DNA from: Candidatus Saccharimonadota bacterium
GTDB taxonomy: Bacteria > Patescibacteriota > Saccharimonadia > Saccharimonadales > Saccharimonadaceae
Direction: 5' to 3'
DNA: 40,202 nucleotides
Assembly (NCBI GenBank): GCA_017431725.1
Contig: JAFRKN010000002.1
Location: forward strand, 1 to 40,202
The position numbers and the translations under genes were made by a program. How positions within the stretch are numbered: the first letter of the stretch is position 1; each line of letters starts with the position of its first letter. Under the pieces are notes generated by a model, which saw only the letters and a list, made by a program, of their open reading frames with translations, searched no databases and had not been told where the DNA came from. Positions 1 through 7,930 of this stretch are shown here, piece after piece.

Positions 1-327
1 GGTTGGACTTTGCCTTATATAACTTATAACGAGAATACAAACCAACCTGAAGGAGATTTCGCAAATTTATGGACTGCATATGGCTGGACTTATAATGATG
101 GCTTTAGTGATATCTCTACACTTTGGTCTGCTCCGCTTTACTCCGCCCCTACCGGCGGCTTCGGCGGTAGCCTCGGGGGTGTCGGGTTCGGCGGCGGCTT
201 CTGGTCGTCTGTTGCGGCGTGTGACCTCGGCGCCAGGTACGCGTACTTCGGCGTGGATGGCGACGCCGGTCCTGCGGACTACCTCAATCGCTACGGCGGT
301 TTCTCAGTTCGTTGTTTACTTCGTTAA
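1..327 (+). CDS. DGR target protein, C-terminal part only (5' end outside window)
   Basis: The frame is open from the first base to a TAA at 325-327 (108 visible residues), with no convincing start or ribosome site, so the gene begins upstream of the window. The last 63 codons lie in the variable repeat. The ending FWSS...YGGFSVRCLLR is typical of C-type-lectin-fold (FGE-sulfatase/Fib_succ-like) ligand-binding domains used by DGR targets. The variable codons are NNY, so mutation of template adenines cannot create a stop. The present variant is rich in Gly, Tyr, Phe and Leu where the template would give Asn. Localisation and binding partner cannot be judged without the N-terminus; surface display is usual for such targets but is inferred. 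Confidence 0.9.
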   Translation, partial: GWTLPYITYNENTNQPEGDFANLWTAYGWTYNDGFSDISTLWSAPLYSAPTGGFGGSLGGVGFGGGFWSSVAACDLGARYAYFGVDGDAGPADYLNRYGGFSVRCLLR

Positions 328-364
328 GCTAAGCGTTTCTAGTTTCTGTCTTTGATCCCTCCAG
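136..364 (+). repeat. DGR variable repeat (VR)
   Basis: This stretch aligns without gaps to the reverse complement of 2434-2662 (VR position p pairs with 2798-p). There are 38 substitutions, all between 157 and 302. Of these, 37 fall on template adenines (24 A to G, 11 A to T, 2 A to C), and one is C to T at 300. The 3' portion, including the stop codon and 37 bases beyond it (325-364), is identical to the template and should contain the mutagenic-homology initiation site. Adenine-specific divergence is the signature of mutagenic retrohoming. Confidence 0.97.
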
Positions 365-411
365 CCTTTCCGAAACTCAAAGAAAAATGCTAAGTTTGCA
401 AAAAGGATATT

Positions 412-1278
412 ATGACGAATAGCAATAATGAAAAATCAATAGTTTCAATTGAAAAAAAGATTGAGGAGATTCGGAAGAGCGATAAGGCGAAGACAAAAGC
501 TAGTCTGGCGGAAATAAAAAGATTACAATCCAGGCTAAATAAAATATATGCTGAGTACAAGCGTAAATTGATGGAGCTAGAAAAAAGCAATAACAATAAA
601 TTGTTGTTTTTGCGTTCGACAAAGGGGTTTTATAAGTTGTTTGGAAACTCGCTCTATTTTTATGCTTTCAACATTGCACCGAAACTAAATATTGATGTAA
701 GGGTGTTTTCTGATGGCGACTATGAGGAAAAATCTGAAGCAGGGGTAGTATCGGTAAAGAATTTGGAGGAAATAGAAAAATTATTCCTTGAACTTAAAAT
801 CAAGCGAGCTAATACTCGTGATAAAACTGGCAATATTGTAGTATATAAATTACCGTGGAGTTATACAGATGAAGAAATTCAAAAATATGTTGAACAAAAT
901 ACCTATGAATTGCATAAGTATAATCATGTAATTGTTGCAGAAAATACGATACCCGTGCTATATCTTAATTTGAACGAACTTTTGAAAATTAGTTATGAAA
1001 ATGTGAGACGATTGGAACCAGTAGCGCGTGAAACGTTGGGGAATATTATTATAGATATAACGGCGGAAATGATTAGAATATATATTGAGATGGCGAATGG
1101 GAGAATTAATGAAGTAAAAGGATTGCAAAATTTAAAAATTAGGCTTAACAAAATAAAATCGCAGGTGAAAATACTGGCGGATTTGAAACTATGGAATGCT
1201 AGGACATATGCTAGAGTTGGGGAAAGCATGATAAAAATTCAGGATATTATAGAATTAAAGCTAAACAGTAGTAAGTAG
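412..1278 (+). CDS. DGR accessory protein: coiled coil, MutS-I-like segment, Avd-like C-terminus
   Basis: The 288-residue protein lies between target and reverse transcriptase. An AAAGGA site sits about six bases before the ATG. Residues 1-60 are highly charged and probably coiled coil. Residues about 63-150 read LLFLRSTKGFYKLFG followed by an alternating alpha/beta stretch. This resembles the mismatch-binding domain I of MutS (LLF..GDFYE.F), except that Lys75 stands where MutS has Glu in its Phe-x-Glu motif. The last 90 residues (from about 198, LEPVARETLG...) form predicted amphipathic helices ending in a pattern like Avd, the four-helix accessory protein that binds DGR reverse transcriptase and template RNA. 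The gene ends one base before the reverse transcriptase start, so the two are probably co-translated. The role is clear from context; the domain assignments are by eye, and the MutS likeness is tentative. Confidence 0.8.
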   Translation: MTNSNNEKSIVSIEKKIEEIRKSDKAKTKASLAEIKRLQSRLNKIYAEYKRKLMELEKSNNNKLLFLRSTKGFYKLFGNSLYFYAFNIAPKLNIDVRVFSDGDYEEKSEAGVVSVKNLEEIEKLFLELKIKRANTRDKTGNIVVYKLPWSYTDEEIQKYVEQNTYELHKYNHVIVAENTIPVLYLNLNELLKISYENVRRLEPVARETLGNIIIDITAEMIRIYIEMANGRINEVKGLQNLKIRLNKIKSQVKILADLKLWNARTYARVGESMIKIQDIIELKLNSSK

Positions 1279-1279
1279 A

Positions 1280-2410
1280 ATGGAGCAGAAATTTGATTTT
1301 AGTGAGTGGCTTTTGGGAGAATTAATTGAGGCTTATTGTGAAGCACGAAAGAATGGTAAAAGAAAAACTAAAAATGAGCATGAGTTAGAATTAAATGAAA
1401 TTGAAAATTTAATAATACTGCGTGATACGATTTTGGCGCGTAGATATCAACCGAGTAGAGGAATCGCTTTTATTATACACGATCCGGTGATAAGAGAAAT
1501 ATTTGCGGCGTCGTTTGTGGATAGAATTGTCCACCATTTTTTATATAAGTATGCAATAATGTGGTGGGAACCGAGATTGTGGAGAGGAGCATATTCTTGC
1601 CGAAAGGGAAAAGGTACTCTAGCGGGTGTAATAGATTTACAAAAAAATATGAGAAGAGTTTCGCAAGATGGACGTGTACCAACGGTAGTAGTGAAGCGAG
1701 ATATTCAAGGTTATTTTATGAGTTTGGAGCGAAAGAAATTATATGAAAGAGTTTGTTGGGGGCTTGAGAGACAATATCCTGAAGGTGGTGAACTATATAG
1801 GACGCTAAAGTATTTATGGAAGCAGATAATATTTGATGATCCAATTATAGGCGTGAAGAAGCGGGGGGATATAAGAGAGTGGCGAGAACTTCCAGCCAGT
1901 AAAAGTTTATTTTATCAGCCGGAGGGGCGAGGAATAGTAATTGGAAATTTAACTTCGCAACTTTTATCTAATATTTTTTTAGATTTATTGGATAGATATA
2001 TTGTGTACGAACTTGGGTATAAGAACTATGGAAGATACGTGGATGATTTTTATATTGTAGTACCAAAAGATGATTTGCCGAAATTGATTGATAACGATAT
2101 GGCGAGTATTGAGACATTTTTGGCGGGGCTTGGGCTGATTATGCATCCAAAAAAGCAGTATAATATTCCGATGTGTAATGGAGTGGATTTTTTAGGGGCG
2201 AAGGTATATTATGATCATATTTTGCCCGGAAAACGGATAATTACAAATTTGGCTAATAAGGTGTATAGGTTCGCTACTACTGGCGAAGGAAAGATAGAGG
2301 GATTTGGATCGTATGATGGGCTGATGGCTTATTATGACAGTGAGAAAATAGTGCGTAAGATTTATGCCGGAGTGGGGTGGGATTATCAAAATAAAGCCAA
2401 TAGAAGTTAG
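1280..2410 (+). CDS. DGR-type reverse transcriptase
   Basis: The 376-residue protein would make mutagenised cDNA from the template-repeat RNA. Recognisable RT blocks occur in order: IREIFAASFVDRIVHH (about 71-86), KRDIQGYFMS with catalytic Asp141, IGNLTSQLLSN (221-231), YGRYVDDFYIV with the YVDD catalytic pair (253-256), and HPKKQ followed by VDFLGAKVY. The (I/V)GxxxSQ form of the fourth block is characteristic of DGR enzymes; group II intron RTs usually have QGxxxSP. There is no maturase or endonuclease domain, as expected for the family. The ATG is one base after the preceding stop, and no good ribosome site is seen, suggesting translational coupling. Confidence 0.96.
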   Translation: MEQKFDFSEWLLGELIEAYCEARKNGKRKTKNEHELELNEIENLIILRDTILARRYQPSRGIAFIIHDPVIREIFAASFVDRIVHHFLYKYAIMWWEPRLWRGAYSCRKGKGTLAGVIDLQKNMRRVSQDGRVPTVVVKRDIQGYFMSLERKKLYERVCWGLERQYPEGGELYRTLKYLWKQIIFDDPIIGVKKRGDIREWRELPASKSLFYQPEGRGIVIGNLTSQLLSNIFLDLLDRYIVYELGYKNYGRYVDDFYIVVPKDDLPKLIDNDMASIETFLAGLGLIMHPKKQYNIPMCNGVDFLGAKVYYDHILPGKRIITNLANKVYRFATTGEGKIEGFGSYDGLMAYYDSEKIVRKIYAGVGWDYQNKANRS

Positions 2411-2433
2411 TGGCAATCGTTTGTTTGGAAAGT

Positions 2434-2662
2434 CTGGAGGGATCAAAGACAGAAACTAGAAACGCTTAGCTTAACGAAGTAAACAACGAACTGAGTTGCC
2501 GTTGTTGCGATTGTTGTTGTTTGCAGGATTGGCGTTGCCATCCACGTTGAAGTTCGCGTTCCTGGCGTTGTTGTCATTCGTCGCAACAGACGACCAGAAG
2601 TTGCCGTTGTTCCCGACATTCCCGAGGTTACCGTTGAAGTTGCCGGTAGGGGCGGAGTAAAG
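2434..2662 (-). repeat. DGR template repeat (TR), inverted relative to VR and RT
   Basis: Read on the minus strand, this repeat would encode the invariant version of the target C-terminus, full of AAC/AAT codons where VR is diversified. It starts 23 bases after the RT stop. Because it reads opposite to the RT gene, the template RNA cannot come from the target-RT transcript and needs its own minus-strand transcription. Homology to VR stops sharply at 2662 and is exact at the other end to 2434. Confidence 0.97.
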
Positions 2663-2849: not shown

Positions 2850-4742
2850 TTATTTATCGACGACTTCGCCTTCGACGGCATCATCATCTTTTTTATCGTC
2901 GTCAGATTTTTTATCGTCTTTTTTTGGCTCTTCAGAAGCTTGTTGATACATTTTTGCACCAATCGGCATGATTTTGTCGTTTAGCTCCTTCATGGCTTCT
3001 TCGTATTTATCTTTGTCGGCCTTATCGTCGTTTAAGACTTTTTTCGCTTCTTCAACAGCTTTTTTGATGGTTTCTTTATCTTCGTCGCTGATTTTATCCT
3101 TGTATTCATCTGGCATTTTTTCGGCTTGATAAATAGAGTTTTCGAGACGGTTTTTGGCGTCGATAGAATCTTTTTTCTTTTTATCCTCTTCGGCATGCAT
3201 TTCGGCTTCTTTTTGAGCTTTTTCGATGTCTTCTTTACTCATATTGCCGGAGTTTTGAATTGTAATGGATTGTTCTTTGCCGGTCCCTTTGTCTTTTGCA
3301 GTAACATTTAAGATACCGTTTGCGTCGAGATTAAAGGTAACTTCAATTTGTGGAACGCCTCGAGGAGCTGGAGCGATGCCGTCGAGGATGAATCTACCAA
3401 GTGATTTGTTATCAGCAGCGAATTCACGCTCGCCTTGTAAGACATGGATTTCGACTTGGGGTTGGTTGTCGGAAGCGGTAGAGAAGATTTCGGACTTACT
3501 GGTTGGAATAGTAGTATTGCGGTCGATTAAAGGAGTCCTGACACCGCCCATAGTTTCAATACCAAGCGTTAATGGAGTAACGTCAAGAAGAAGAACATCT
3601 TTGACGTCGCCCTGAAGAACGCCGCCCTGAATTGCAGCACCAACGGCAACGACTTCATCAGGGTTGACGCCTTGCATTGGATCTTTGCCGAAAATGGATT
3701 TAACTTTTTCGATGACGGCTGGCATACGGGTCATACCACCAACCATGACGATTTCGTTAATATCTTTAGTTTCGAGTTTAGCGTCTTTTAAGGCTTTTTT
3801 GACTGGACCTTCGAGGCGATCTAGGAGCTCTTTGACGAGCTCTTCGAGTTTGGCACGAGTCAAAGTAGTTTCAAAATGTTTTGGGCCGTCAGCATCAGCG
3901 GATAAGAAGGGAAGGTTGATGTCGGTGGAGGTGCTGGAGCTGAGTTCTTTTTTAGCTTTTTCGGCTTCGTCTTTGACACGTTGCATAGCAGCGGCATCGT
4001 TTTTAATATCAATACCGGACTCTTTTTTAAATTCGTCAACTAAATAATTTACGATGATATTATCGAAATCTTCACCGCCGAGGTGGGTATCGCCGTTAGT
4101 CGACATAACTTCGAAAACGCCATCGCCGAGTTCGAGGATTGAGACGTCGAAGGTTCCACCACCAAGATCGAAGACGACGATTTTTTCATCTTTTTTCGAT
4201 TCGAGGCCATAGGCTAAAGCAGCGGCAGTCGGTTCGTTAATAATACGTTTAACTTCGAGACCAGCGATTTTGCCAGCATCTTTGGTGGCTTGGCGTTGAG
4301 AATCGTCGAAATAGGCTGGAACGGTAATAATAGCTTCGGTGACTTTTTCGCCAAGAAAAGCTTCGGCATCGGCTTTGATTTTTGAGAGAACCATAGCACT
4401 GATTTCTTCCGGTGTGTATTCTTTGCCGTCCATTTCAACCGCTACGCCACTACCTTTTTTAACGATTTTATAAGGACTGATTTCAAGATCGTGTTGGACT
4501 TCTTTATCGGTAAACTTACGACCAATCAGGCGCTTGATGCCATAAATCGTGTTTTTGGGGTTGGTTACCCTTTGTCTTTGGGCGACTTTTCCAACTAAAC
4601 GCTCACCTTTTTTGGTGATGGCAACAACAGAAGGGGTTGTGCGGTCGCCTTCGGCGTTCGTAATTACTTCGGGTTTGCCAGCGACCATATAAGCAAAAGC
4701 GCTGTTCGTAGTTCCGAGATCTATACCAATAATTTTACTCAT
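2850..4742 (-). CDS. dnaK: chaperone DnaK (Hsp70)
   Basis: The 630-residue ATP-dependent chaperone works with GrpE (34369) and a J-protein not in this window. The start [14 protein letters not shown] is placed at 4742, preceded by a GTGAGG ribosome site; an in-frame ATG 33 bases upstream lies inside the operator and is unlikely. The nucleotide-binding domain shows IDLGTTNS near the N-terminus, [12 protein letters not shown] at about 190-201 and a VGGMTRMP motif. The substrate-binding domain has the usual LQGERE segment, and the tail is rich in Asp and Lys. Regulation is by HrcA through two CIRCE elements upstream. Length and motifs are standard. Confidence 0.98.
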
Positions 4743-4768
4743 TTTTTCCTCACTTTCTTTAAATTTTG

Positions 4769-4795
4769 TTGGCACTCGTATATATTGAGTGCTAA
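4769..4795. promoter_or_regulatory. CIRCE operator, proximal to dnaK
   Basis: Arms TTGGCACTC and GAGTGCTAA are separated by exactly nine bases. This matches the HrcA operator TTAGCACTC-N9-GAGTGCTAA with one change. It lies in the predicted dnaK leader just after the transcription start. Confidence 0.93.
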
Positions 4796-4804
4796 TTTAT
4801 ATCT

Positions 4805-4833
4805 ATTGTATATTATTGGCACTATATTGTCAA
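4805..4833 (-). promoter_or_regulatory. dnaK promoter
   Basis: On the minus strand, TTGACA (4828-4833) is followed after 17 bases by TACAAT (4805-4810). The -35 hexamer lies inside the distal CIRCE, so HrcA binding should block RNA polymerase directly. Confidence 0.85.
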
Positions 4834-4842
4834 GAGTGCTAA
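4816..4842. promoter_or_regulatory. second CIRCE operator, overlapping the dnaK -35
   Basis: Arms TTGGCACTA and GAGTGCTAA are nine bases apart. One arm has two differences from consensus and the other is perfect. Tandem CIRCE elements bracket the dnaK promoter. Confidence 0.88.
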
Positions 4843-4852
4843 TTTAGAGATA

Positions 4853-4995
4853 ATAATAAACTTTTCTTCACTTGTTGAGGTGAAAACTTGAAAAAATAAT
4901 TTGATGGAAACCTTCCGGTATTGCAGTACCGGCTTTCCATCACTATTTTCCCAAGTTTTCAGCCTTCTTATAACAAAAGAAGAAAAGTTTATTAT
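4853..4995. repeat. long imperfect hairpin between dnaK and ruvB (possible structured RNA)
   Basis: Nested inverted repeats fold this 143-base stretch into one rod. Arms are 4853-4869/4979-4995 (17 bp), 4881-4890/4952-4961 (10 bp), 4902-4910/4934-4942 (9 bp) and 4915-4920/4927-4932 (6 bp). Unpaired bubbles separate the arms, the most central being 4891-4901 opposite 4943-4951. A rod with a central bubble is reminiscent of 6S RNA. A palindromic mobile element or a transcription insulator is also possible. No T-run follows either side. Confidence 0.6.
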
Positions 4996-5023
4996 AGCCT
5001 CTGTTTGTAGTATAATATATAAT

Positions 5024-6043
5024 ATGGCGATAGAGAGGTTAGTGGAGCCGACATTGGCAGAGGATAATTCGGAAGAGGCGAAAATTGAAATTTCGCTTCG
5101 GCCGACGAGCTTTAAAGAATATATTGGGCAGGAACATCTTAAGAATAATCTTAAACTGGCAATCGATGCGGTAAAAAAGCGAAATGATGGGTCGACTTTA
5201 GACCATATATTATTATATGGTCCACCGGGGTTAGGAAAAACGACACTGGCGGGGGTAGTGGCACATGAATTAGGAGCTTCTATTCGGGTAACTTCGGGGC
5301 CGGCAATTGAAAGAGCAGGAGATTTAGCTTCAATTTTGACGAATCTAAAAGACGGCGACGTTTTATTTATTGATGAAATTCACCGTTTAAAACGGGCAGT
5401 GGAGGAAGTTTTGTATTCGGCGATGGAAGATTACAAATTAGATATTGTGATTGGGAAAGGCCCGGCGGCGCGTTCGATGAGACTAGATTTACCTAAATTT
5501 ACAGTAATTGGAGCAACAACTCGAACTGGATCTCTTGCTGGACCTTTGAGAGATAGATTTGGGATTATTCATAGATTGGAATATTATAAAGAACCAGAAA
5601 TTGAACAAATTATTAATCGAACGGCTAAGATATTAAAAACTAGAATTGAACCGAGAGCGACGGCGCTTTTGGCGGGGAGGTCGAGATTGACGCCGAGGAT
5701 TGCAAACAGATTGTTTAAGAGGGTAAGGGATTATGCTGATGTAAATGGAGACGGGATAATTGATCAAGAAATTGCCAGACAGTCGCTTGAGTTGATGGAA
5801 ATAGACTATTTGGGGCTTGATCCGGCAGACCGAAATATGTTAAGGCTAATGTATGATAATTATGGTGATAAACCAGTGGGACTAACGACGATTGCGGCAT
5901 TAACTGGAGATGAAGCAACAACTATAGAGGATTATTATGAACCTTATTTGTTGCAGCTGGGGCTTTTGGTGAGAACGCCAAGAGGTAGAGTGGTGACGGA
6001 AAAGGGGAGGAAGCATTTACAAAATCCAAAAAATAATGTATAA
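5024..6043 (+). CDS. ruvB: Holliday junction branch-migration helicase RuvB
   Basis: The 339-residue AAA+ motor drives branch migration with RuvA; ruvA and ruvC are not in the window. GPPGLGKT is Walker A, DEIH is Walker B, GATTRTG is the sensor region, and a C-terminal winged helix ends in RTPRGR. The start MAIERLVEP at 5024 is chosen because TATAAT (5011-5016) lies seven bases upstream, giving a leaderless message, and because the family begins here. The longer reading from 4901 would translate the hairpin and is rejected. Confidence 0.97.
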
Positions 6044-6061
6044 TATAAAAAAGGAGTGATA

Positions 6062-6670
6062 ATGGATGAAGCTTTGGTTAAAATTCGTCATGAAAGAAGT
6101 AAAAAAGATTTTCCTGGTCTAAAGCTTGATGATGATGAATATGTTGAATTTGCCTTCAGAAGAGCGCAAATTTGTTTGATGATGATTTGGGGAGGAACGG
6201 CTTTTGGTTTGATTGTGATTTTGCTCGCTTTTTTGTTGGTTTTGATGGGGCAGGGAATGCTTGATGATATGGGGCGACGCTTTTTATTTATTATTTTGTT
6301 TGCCCTTTTGGCAGCTTCAATAATTATTGGAGCTTTGGCTTCGAGGATTTATCATGGAAATAAAATTTTTATCACAAACAAACATGCGATTCAGATGGTA
6401 ATGGATTCGCCAGTTTTAACTTCAATCAATATTATTGATTTGTCTTCGGTAGAAGATGCAAGTTTCAGACAAGATAGTTTGATACAGAAATTATTTCATT
6501 ATGGAACCTTTAGATTGGCAACGGTGGGAGATGAGACAACTTATACTTTTAAGTATTCTGATATTTCGCCAAGTGATTTGAAAGCGGTAACGAAATTGAT
6601 ATCGGCAGCAAAAAAATCGAGTGCTACAAAAGAAAAAGGCAACAAAAATAGAGAGGACGACGGTAAATAA
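6062..6670 (+). CDS. membrane protein with bacterial PH (DUF304-like) domain
   Basis: The 202-residue protein has a cytoplasmic N-terminus, two adjacent membrane helices (about 42-70 and 77-100), and a C-terminal segment with the beta-rich bacterial PH pattern (NKIFITNKHAIQM...TFRLATVGDETTYTF). The tail is Lys-rich. AAGGAG lies five bases before the ATG, and a TATAAT overlaps the ruvB stop codon, so it may have its own promoter as well as read-through. The family is common in bacteria, with membrane-stress or unknown roles; no specific function can be given. Confidence 0.8.
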   Translation: MDEALVKIRHERSKKDFPGLKLDDDEYVEFAFRRAQICLMMIWGGTAFGLIVILLAFLLVLMGQGMLDDMGRRFLFIILFALLAASIIIGALASRIYHGNKIFITNKHAIQMVMDSPVLTSINIIDLSSVEDASFRQDSLIQKLFHYGTFRLATVGDETTYTFKYSDISPSDLKAVTKLISAAKKSSATKEKGNKNREDDGK

Positions 6671-7060
6671 TTAATTACGGTGATATTTGATATAGGTGTC
6701 TTCTTTTTCGAGAATAGCTTTTAGAACATATTCTTTGCATTTGCCATCTTTGCAGTTGGCAGCTTCGTAGGAGTAAGAACCCATAGGATCGCCAAGATTA
6801 TAGCCAAGCGGATCGGTCCAAAGAGCGGGATCAATGACTTTAATATTTTCTTCGGAAATGGTTTCGGGATAAAAGCCATTGTTTTTGTAAAAACTTTCTT
6901 CAAGAGCGTAATACATGGCATTGATAGCGATTTTGCGGTCTTCATCGCGCTCCATAGCATCGATATTGGATTTTTGGATGAAGAAAAGAATAACAAGAAG
7001 AGTAGCAAAGATAGATACAATGATAATTTCTAAAATAGTGAAGCCTTGTTTTTTATTCAT
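6671..7060 (-). CDS. type IV pilin-like protein
   Basis: The 129-residue protein starts MNKKQGFTILEIIIV. It has a short leader, a prepilin cleavage site after Gly6, Phe at mature +1 and Glu at +5, then a hydrophobic helix. The C-terminal part has the Cys pair NCKDGKC and could form a small globular head, so this may be a major-type pilin. A minus-strand TATAAT ends six bases before the ATG (leaderless). It converges with the PH-domain gene, with which it abuts exactly. A prepilin peptidase is not in the window. The PilB-like ATPase (15759) and minor pilins (25739-28669) are likely partners. Confidence 0.85.
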   Translation of the reverse strand: MNKKQGFTILEIIIVSIFATLLVILFFIQKSNIDAMERDEDRKIAINAMYYALEESFYKNNGFYPETISEENIKVIDPALWTDPLGYNLGDPMGSYSYEAANCKDGKCKEYVLKAILEKEDTYIKYHRN

Positions 7061-7127
7061 AACTTAATTATAACACAAAAAATGGTGGTAGGAGCGCTGG
7101 CGCGCTCGGTGCCACTGCGATTGTTCA

Positions 7128-7155
7128 AAAAATCCAAAGCAGGCTTTGGATTTTT
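7128..7155. terminator. palindrome with flanking A/T runs
   Basis: Arms of 13 bases (AAAAATCCAAAGC and its complement) are separated by two bases, with T-rich flanks, so it could act as a terminator in either direction. The interval 7061-7233 otherwise holds no gene I can support. Confidence 0.6.
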
Positions 7156-7233
7156 ATTCACAATCTGGTGGGGGCGAATTGTTCAGGCATTAACAGTCTA
7201 TAAGGAGGATATTCTGGAAAGGCTTGATCGTGC

Positions 7234-7239
7234 TATAAT
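7234..7239 (+). promoter_or_regulatory. -10 box for the 7271 gene
   Basis: TATAAT stands 31 bases before the ATG at 7271, with an AAAGGA ribosome site between them. No clear -35 is seen. Confidence 0.55.
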
Positions 7240-7270
7240 GGAGGCATAAGAATTATAGAAAGGAAATTTA

Positions 7271-7930
7271 ATGGAACAAAATGCCGATGCTGGAGCATCA
7301 ATGACACCAGTAGCAAAAAATAAGCAAAAAGGTGGAAATGGCCTAAAAATTGCGACTGTGATTACGTGTGTTGTGGCGGTTTGTGGTATCGGGTTTGGCG
7401 TCTACAGTATGATGCAAAGCTCACAAAAGGATAACCAAGTCTCAGATTTACAAAATCAAATTAATACCTTAAATGACGAACTATCTTCAAAAAATAATAG
7501 CTCGACAGACGAAACGACAAGTAGCTCATCTGCCACAAATAACAATTCAAAAGATTATCTTTATATTGGAGAATGGGACGTAAAAATCAAAATCCCAGAC
7601 GGACTTTATATCTATGATTACAAAGTAAAATTGGCTGAAACAACTAATCTTACATGGTACGATAACGCACCGCATATTATCGTATCTGGCTTCACCCAAC
7701 AGCTTACATCTTCGCCGTCTATCCCAGAGGAATGCTATAGTCTTATTATTGCAAGAACTAAGGATCAAACGGATGGAAGTTTGGCAAGTTATGATGGATA
7801 TTCATATTCAATAGGAACTGATGTCCCTTGTCTTGTTGAAACTGGTTACTCTAAAGAAGATGTTGATTTAGGCGGAAAACAATTAATAAAAGAAATGTTT
7901 TCAGATATCAACAACTACTCTAGGATTTAG
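7271..7930 (+). CDS. membrane-anchored extracytoplasmic protein, unknown function
   Basis: The 219-residue protein has a Lys-rich cytoplasmic N-terminus, one membrane helix (about 25-47), a short coiled coil (VSDLQNQINTLNDELSS), a low-complexity Ser/Thr/Asn linker, and a folded C-terminal domain beginning YLYIGEWDVKIKIPDG. Two Cys residues in that domain (in EECYS and VPCLV) could pair outside the cell. Similar single-helix, linker and small-domain proteins are numerous in Saccharibacteria. I do not recognise the domain. Followed by a strong terminator. Confidence 0.8.
   Translation: MEQNADAGASMTPVAKNKQKGGNGLKIATVITCVVAVCGIGFGVYSMMQSSQKDNQVSDLQNQINTLNDELSSKNNSSTDETTSSSSATNNNSKDYLYIGEWDVKIKIPDGLYIYDYKVKLAETTNLTWYDNAPHIIVSGFTQQLTSSPSIPEECYSLIIARTKDQTDGSLASYDGYSYSIGTDVPCLVETGYSKEDVDLGGKQLIKEMFSDINNYSRI

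Follow-up and report, generated by a model that had tools for sequence, protein, structure and literature searches.

What kind of protein is encoded directly ahead of the DGR reverse transcriptase (RT) at this locus, and what might the part of it that resembles MutS do there? The priming of mutated DGR cDNA and its writing into the target gene are an open question in the field, and most DGR work rests on one system with a stand-alone Avd. The window analysed here, a stretch of 40,202 nt from a Candidatus Saccharimonadota contig (JAFRKN010000002.1), holds a gene whose product joins two known DGR accessory modules in one polypeptide, a MutS-domain-I-like (MSL) domain and an Avd. The protein unites two accessory kinds that are already known and contains no new module, and we hold this identification of its two domains with high confidence. 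MSL has been listed as a DGR accessory type beside Avd and HRDC and assigned to PF01624 (PMC10053308, citing an earlier survey). No earlier description of an MSL-Avd fusion was found in the literature searched, the survey that named MSL lying outside that search.

Table 1. Features of the DGR locus and of the accessory protein, in window coordinates
Feature	Position	Strand	Basis
DGR target gene, truncated at the contig edge to its C-terminal part, which ends in ...YGGFSVRCLLR	1..327	+	Frame open from position 1; holds most of the VR
VR (variable repeat)	136..374	+	Aligns with the TR over 239 nt; 39 of the 40 mismatches at TR adenines
MSL-Avd fusion accessory protein, 288 aa	412..1278	+	ORF
Residues 1-35, helical extension at the N-terminus that varies among family members	412..516	+	Predicted secondary structure
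Residues 36-152, MSL domain, net charge +9	517..867	+	pLDDT 93; 24 best VIA-align rows are MutS/MSH domain I
Codons F73-Y74-K75, corresponding to MutS Phe36-Tyr37-Glu38	628..636	+	Family residue counts
Residues 153-175, connecting helix	868..936	+	Predicted structure
Residues 176-288, Avd four-helix bundle	937..1275	+	Foldseek, VIA-align and HMM matches to stand-alone Avds
DGR RT, 376 aa, with IGNLTSQ and YVDD	1280..2410	+	phrog_1423 reverse transcriptase, 2.8e-65
TR (template repeat), inverted relative to the RT	2424..2662	-	239-nt repeat pair with the VR

The accessory ORF lies at the coordinates given in the initial annotation: the ATG at 412 is preceded by an AGGA-type ribosome site, the stop codon TAG occupies 1276-1278 and the RT starts after a gap of 1 nt. 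The RT is of the DGR kind, as indicated by its phrog_1423 match, its two motifs and the 80 relatives that have the same neighbour, and its mean column identity is 49% among 20 relatives. The accessory gene and the RT are flanked by the VR and the TR, and the VR runs 47 nt past the stop codon of the target gene. All but one of the TR/VR differences fall on template adenines, and such an adenine-biased pair is the ordinary sign of a working DGR. Being inverted relative to the RT, the TR cannot belong to the accessory-RT transcript, unlike in BPP-1, whose transcript orientation is different. The same opposite placement of the TR is seen in 64 of the 66 loci with a detectable pair (among loci L038-L117).

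Residues 176-288 are an Avd. AlphaFold2 modelling of the whole protein with 80 sequences gave a mean pLDDT of 95, with values mostly of 96-98 over a four-helix bundle of the Avd type. As the initial annotation had expected of the C-terminus, this helical bundle superposes on the Avd of BPP-1, with a VIA-align Z of 14.8 (rmsd 1.8 over 107 residues) to 8ub7_E from the BPP-1 DGR RNP and of 14.7 to free Avd (4dwl_D); the corresponding Foldseek values are 8.4e-4 and 4.1e-3, and the list of structural matches is headed by Avd and its IVP relatives. Helical bundles easily match one another, and the assignment is also backed by the gene neighbourhood and by sequence matches. The family HMM matches 21 short viral DGR ORFs (114-141 aa; best E 8.9e-9), always within model positions 168-278, and the viral Avd HMM in turn matches 31 members of the Saccharibacteria family. 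NCBIfam DivGenRetAVD matches the single sequence weakly (E 0.0036, or 2.9e-4 in the whole-genome search, where the fusion protein is the sole Avd match), scoring 17.6 bits against an equivalog cut-off of 80 bits; the Avd encoded as a separate gene in the viral locus L118 also falls below this cut-off, at 48.6.

The domain thus resembles the Avd of BPP-1 (PDB 4dwl; RNP structures 8ub7, 8ub8, 8ube and 8ubb) in being a four-helix bundle of about 110 residues encoded beside a DGR RT. It differs in that the BPP-1 Avd stands alone, whereas here it forms the C-terminal third of a longer protein, and identity over the bundle is only 8-9%. The BPP-1 Avd associates with the RT, and retrohoming depends on it (PMC12875486).

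Residues 36-152 are predicted to fold like MutS domain I. Modelled alone, they form a helix-strand-strand-helix-strand-helix-strand arrangement. When this model was compared with known structures by VIA-align, all 24 best entries were MutS/MSH domain I, with Z from 6.1 to 4.8; they include the E. coli, Neisseria and Taq proteins and human MSH3, and 67-95 MutS residues are covered. The first other fold in the list of about 1000 chains is GFRP (Z 4.8). A Z of about 6 lies below the level that would rule out a common arrangement and does not settle the fold alone, but MutS domain I had been named beforehand from the motif GFYKLFG and a single family fills the top of the list. This motif spans residues 72-78, and its Lys75 falls at E. 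coli MutS Glu38, just as the initial annotation had read it. The predicted structure backs the name ‘MutS-like’ for MSL, and it gives a DGR accessory protein a fold of the MSL kind.

At the level of sequence the resemblance is remote. The pattern of MutS domain I that had been read by eye is sustained by the predicted fold and by a profile link through MSL, but it is not visible to single-sequence searches: residues 36-152 gave no usable match in Pfam, NCBIfam, PHROGs or PDB sequences, and PF01624 gave none to the protein at E<=10. Among relatives, PF01624 matches 1 of 29 (at 0.035), and the best family member reaches 12.9 bits against a curated cut-off of 20.6. A Foldseek search with residues 36-152 returned nothing under 0.001, its best hits (E 0.62) being to unrelated chains. 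The profile of the middle domain matches MutS_I weakly, in the expected register (P 0.013, with 1 of 100 column-permuted decoys scoring as high), and matches MSL alone at P 0.007 (0 of 200 permuted decoys). A similarity of residues 122-185 to phage_Sak-like/DUF1071 (E 0.014 and 0.1) did not carry over to the family profile, and we set it aside.

Viral DGRs supply the intermediate. Using the RT profile, we fetched 80 viral DGR loci from IMG/VR, many of which encode upstream of the RT a protein of 160-220 aa with the pattern GxFYRAYEWSAWL ... VGFPxxSLxKYIP. Pfam MutS_I matches 11 of the 61 scanned viral neighbours, weakly (best 0.016), and the profile of these proteins matches MutS_I at P 1.5e-4 with both motifs in register (1 of 200 decoys as high); they fit the DGR accessory type MSL. 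MSL and Avd share one ORF in 11 loci (L124, L127, L128, L130-L134, L136, L158 and L188), MSL occurs without a recognised Avd in 33, which could hide an unrecognised one, Avd occurs without MSL in 29, and 3 loci have neither. In L118 the two are encoded by adjacent genes with 18 nt between them, ordered MSL-Avd-RT.

The Saccharibacteria family matches the viral MSL-Avd fusions with a probability of 90 (P 1.5e-6) over 223 columns that take in both domains; none of 80 decoys scores as high, the best permuted score being 21.0 against 50.5. Since this match is collinear over both domains, the accessory protein is an MSL-Avd fusion, and the IMG/VR fusions are its closest relatives. The initial annotation had proposed just such a joining of a MutS-domain-I-like and an Avd-like part, and both halves hold. 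The relationship to MSL is seen by profile-profile comparison only, a plain MSL HMM giving no matches to the Saccharibacteria domain. With the viral fusions (258-280 aa) the protein shares its domain order and its place upstream of the RT; they differ in a shorter N-terminus and another linker, and their MSL half goes undetected by a plain HMM. With MSL proteins in general it shares the domain I-like fold, an aromatic-x-basic/polar element, an invariant Ser and the position upstream of a DGR RT, whereas most of them, at about 160-220 aa, have a short C-terminal helical tail and no Avd. Searches of phage and plasmid record collections gave no match to MSL or MSL-Avd proteins, and the accessory protein of this locus had no match in phages.

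Within the Saccharibacteria, a search of 100 relatives found homologs in 36, which all belong to one genus. A scan of a second collection with the RT profile yielded 80 loci, every one of them with a family member, which lies just upstream of the RT (in L078 the member is on the other strand); the contigs come from Candidatus Saccharibacteria of animal guts and rumen. This presence and linkage to the RT across relatives is more than chance. Over the 80 loci, MSL domain, Avd domain and RT show mutually correlated distances (Spearman 0.26-0.33; 0 of 500 permutations as high). The fusion suggests that the MSL and Avd modules act in the same enzyme complex. In other Patescibacteria the full profile finds the C-terminal part only, as a stand-alone ORF of mostly 115-160 aa, and a search of 287 genomes of the phylum with the middle-domain profile gave nothing convincing outside the genus. 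The best match outside, at 0.0046 (L245), proved on inspection to be a region of a membrane protein and not MutS.

What the MSL domain can do depends in part on the loss of the MutS mismatch-contact pair. Residue 73, at the MutS Phe36 position, is aromatic in 79 of 80 family members, whereas residue 75, at the Glu38 position, is Lys in 60/80 and Glu in 5/80, and residue 80, an invariant Asp in MutS, is Ser in all 80. With Lys for Glu and Ser for Asp, the mismatch-reading Phe-x-Glu pair of MutS is not kept as such. MSL proteins have at these positions an aromatic residue, then Arg, His or Gln, and then an invariant Ser, in counts that include one target-gene ORF row (L124:1858-2769) which the profile comparison leaves out. 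The domain thus shares with MutS domain I (PF01624; E. coli, Neisseria and Taq MutS, human MSH3) its predicted fold, its strand order and the aromatic residue, but it has neither Glu38 nor the invariant Asp, and it scores far under the family cut-off. The clamp, connector and ATPase domains of the MutS mismatch-repair protein are absent, the rest of the chain being Avd. Its net charge averages +5.3 in the family. At a median identity of 25%, it is better conserved than the Avd domain (17%), and K50, E57, N60, S80 and D101 are invariant.

As a whole, the locus is best explained by an MSL-Avd accessory protein that serves the RT as a gripping cofactor, a reading to which we give a probability of roughly 55%. 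By analogy with Avd in the BPP-1 RNP, the Avd bundle would assemble, dock on the RT and hold the template RNA. The positively charged MSL domain may, through its aromatic-x-Lys element, grip a distorted duplex near the RT, either the RNA:cDNA hybrid or, where priming occurs, structured TR-RNA; that this element is a nucleic-acid contact is suggested by analogy, and we give about even odds that the MSL domain is the nucleic-acid-gripping part of the RT complex. The fused chain would then do the work for which other DGRs rely on MSL alone or on Avd alone. As MSL often occurs with no recognised Avd beside the RT, we read it as an RT cofactor domain; the viral loci with MSL only suggest a core role of this kind and not only the late handling of a heteroduplex. 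The fusion indicates that the two best-known alternative accessory modules belong to one complex and fixes how they are placed in it, which makes the role of MSL accessible by dividing a single chain.

The MSL domain could instead act after cDNA synthesis, holding the heteroduplex of mutated cDNA and target at integration by a MutS-like aromatic wedge. The fold and the conserved aromatic residue at the Phe36 position suit such a role, the cDNA left by adenine-biased mutagenesis differs from the VR at many positions, and an HTH in a few relatives is consistent with contact with DNA. The replacement of Glu38 by Lys and of the MutS-invariant Asp by Ser speaks against it, as does the fact that MSL often replaces Avd instead of adding to it, which suits an RT cofactor better, and we regard this alternative as unlikely. 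Its more specific form, in which a MutS-kind domain I with an aromatic-x-Lys element, in the DGR RNP of bacteria where no MutS was found, holds the mutated cDNA on its mismatched target, is somewhat more doubtful still; if it were true, mismatch tolerance would be built into the retroelement itself.

In a second alternative, which we likewise consider improbable, the MSL domain makes no contact with nucleic acid and serves as a protein-protein adaptor, docking on the RT or giving the Avd oligomer its shape. The invariant residues include acidic ones, MutS domain I is itself part of a large multidomain protein, and the correlation between MSL-domain and RT distances fits such an adaptor; the positive charge of the domain, here and on average in the family, and the conserved aromatic-x-Lys element argue the other way. 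It is quite unlikely that the likeness to MutS is a chance arrangement or convergence, the middle domain being an alpha/beta domain that is unrelated to MutS and joined to Avd. PF01624 exceeds its cut-off in no member and Foldseek finds only unrelated chains, but MutS/MSH entries from several subfamilies fill the top VIA-align rows in a register proposed beforehand, and both the profile connection by way of MSL and the collinearity with the MSL-Avd fusions point the same way.

The initial annotation had also raised the possibility that the protein guards the heteroduplex from repair. Among 60 congeners, of which 39 are nearly complete, none had PF01624 over its cut-off, against 11 of 14 control genomes, and PF00488 (MutS_V) is absent from the organism's own genome. 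As no MutS was found, the host would lack the canonical MutS repair from which the heteroduplex might need guarding. A shielding of the mismatched product from MutS-dependent repair by the host, for which the fold analogy alone speaks, is very hard to credit. No MutS was found in the organism's own genome or in the sampled genus and order, which contrasts with a review according to which CPR genomes carry mismatch-repair genes (PMC10221324).

Several loci depart from the common arrangement. Five of the 80 Saccharibacteria members carry an N-terminal XRE-type HTH (best HTH_3 E 1.9e-8), giving the order HTH-MSL-Avd; these are L107:2934-3944, L110:2907-3929, L116:2924-3940 and two more. One viral contig, L141, has tandem DGR units, Avd-RT followed by MSL-RT (3221-3613, 3971-5203, 5206-5745 and 5806-7602). 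Two other viral loci (L135:2971-3159 and L138:245-433) have directly before Avd a 62-aa ORF that matches only the C-terminal tail of MSL and is possibly the remnant of an MSL gene. Finally, in one Saccharibacteria genome the accessory gene is split into two overlapping ORFs (L064:3141-3563 and 3481-3933), the cause being either an internal frameshift or an assembly error.
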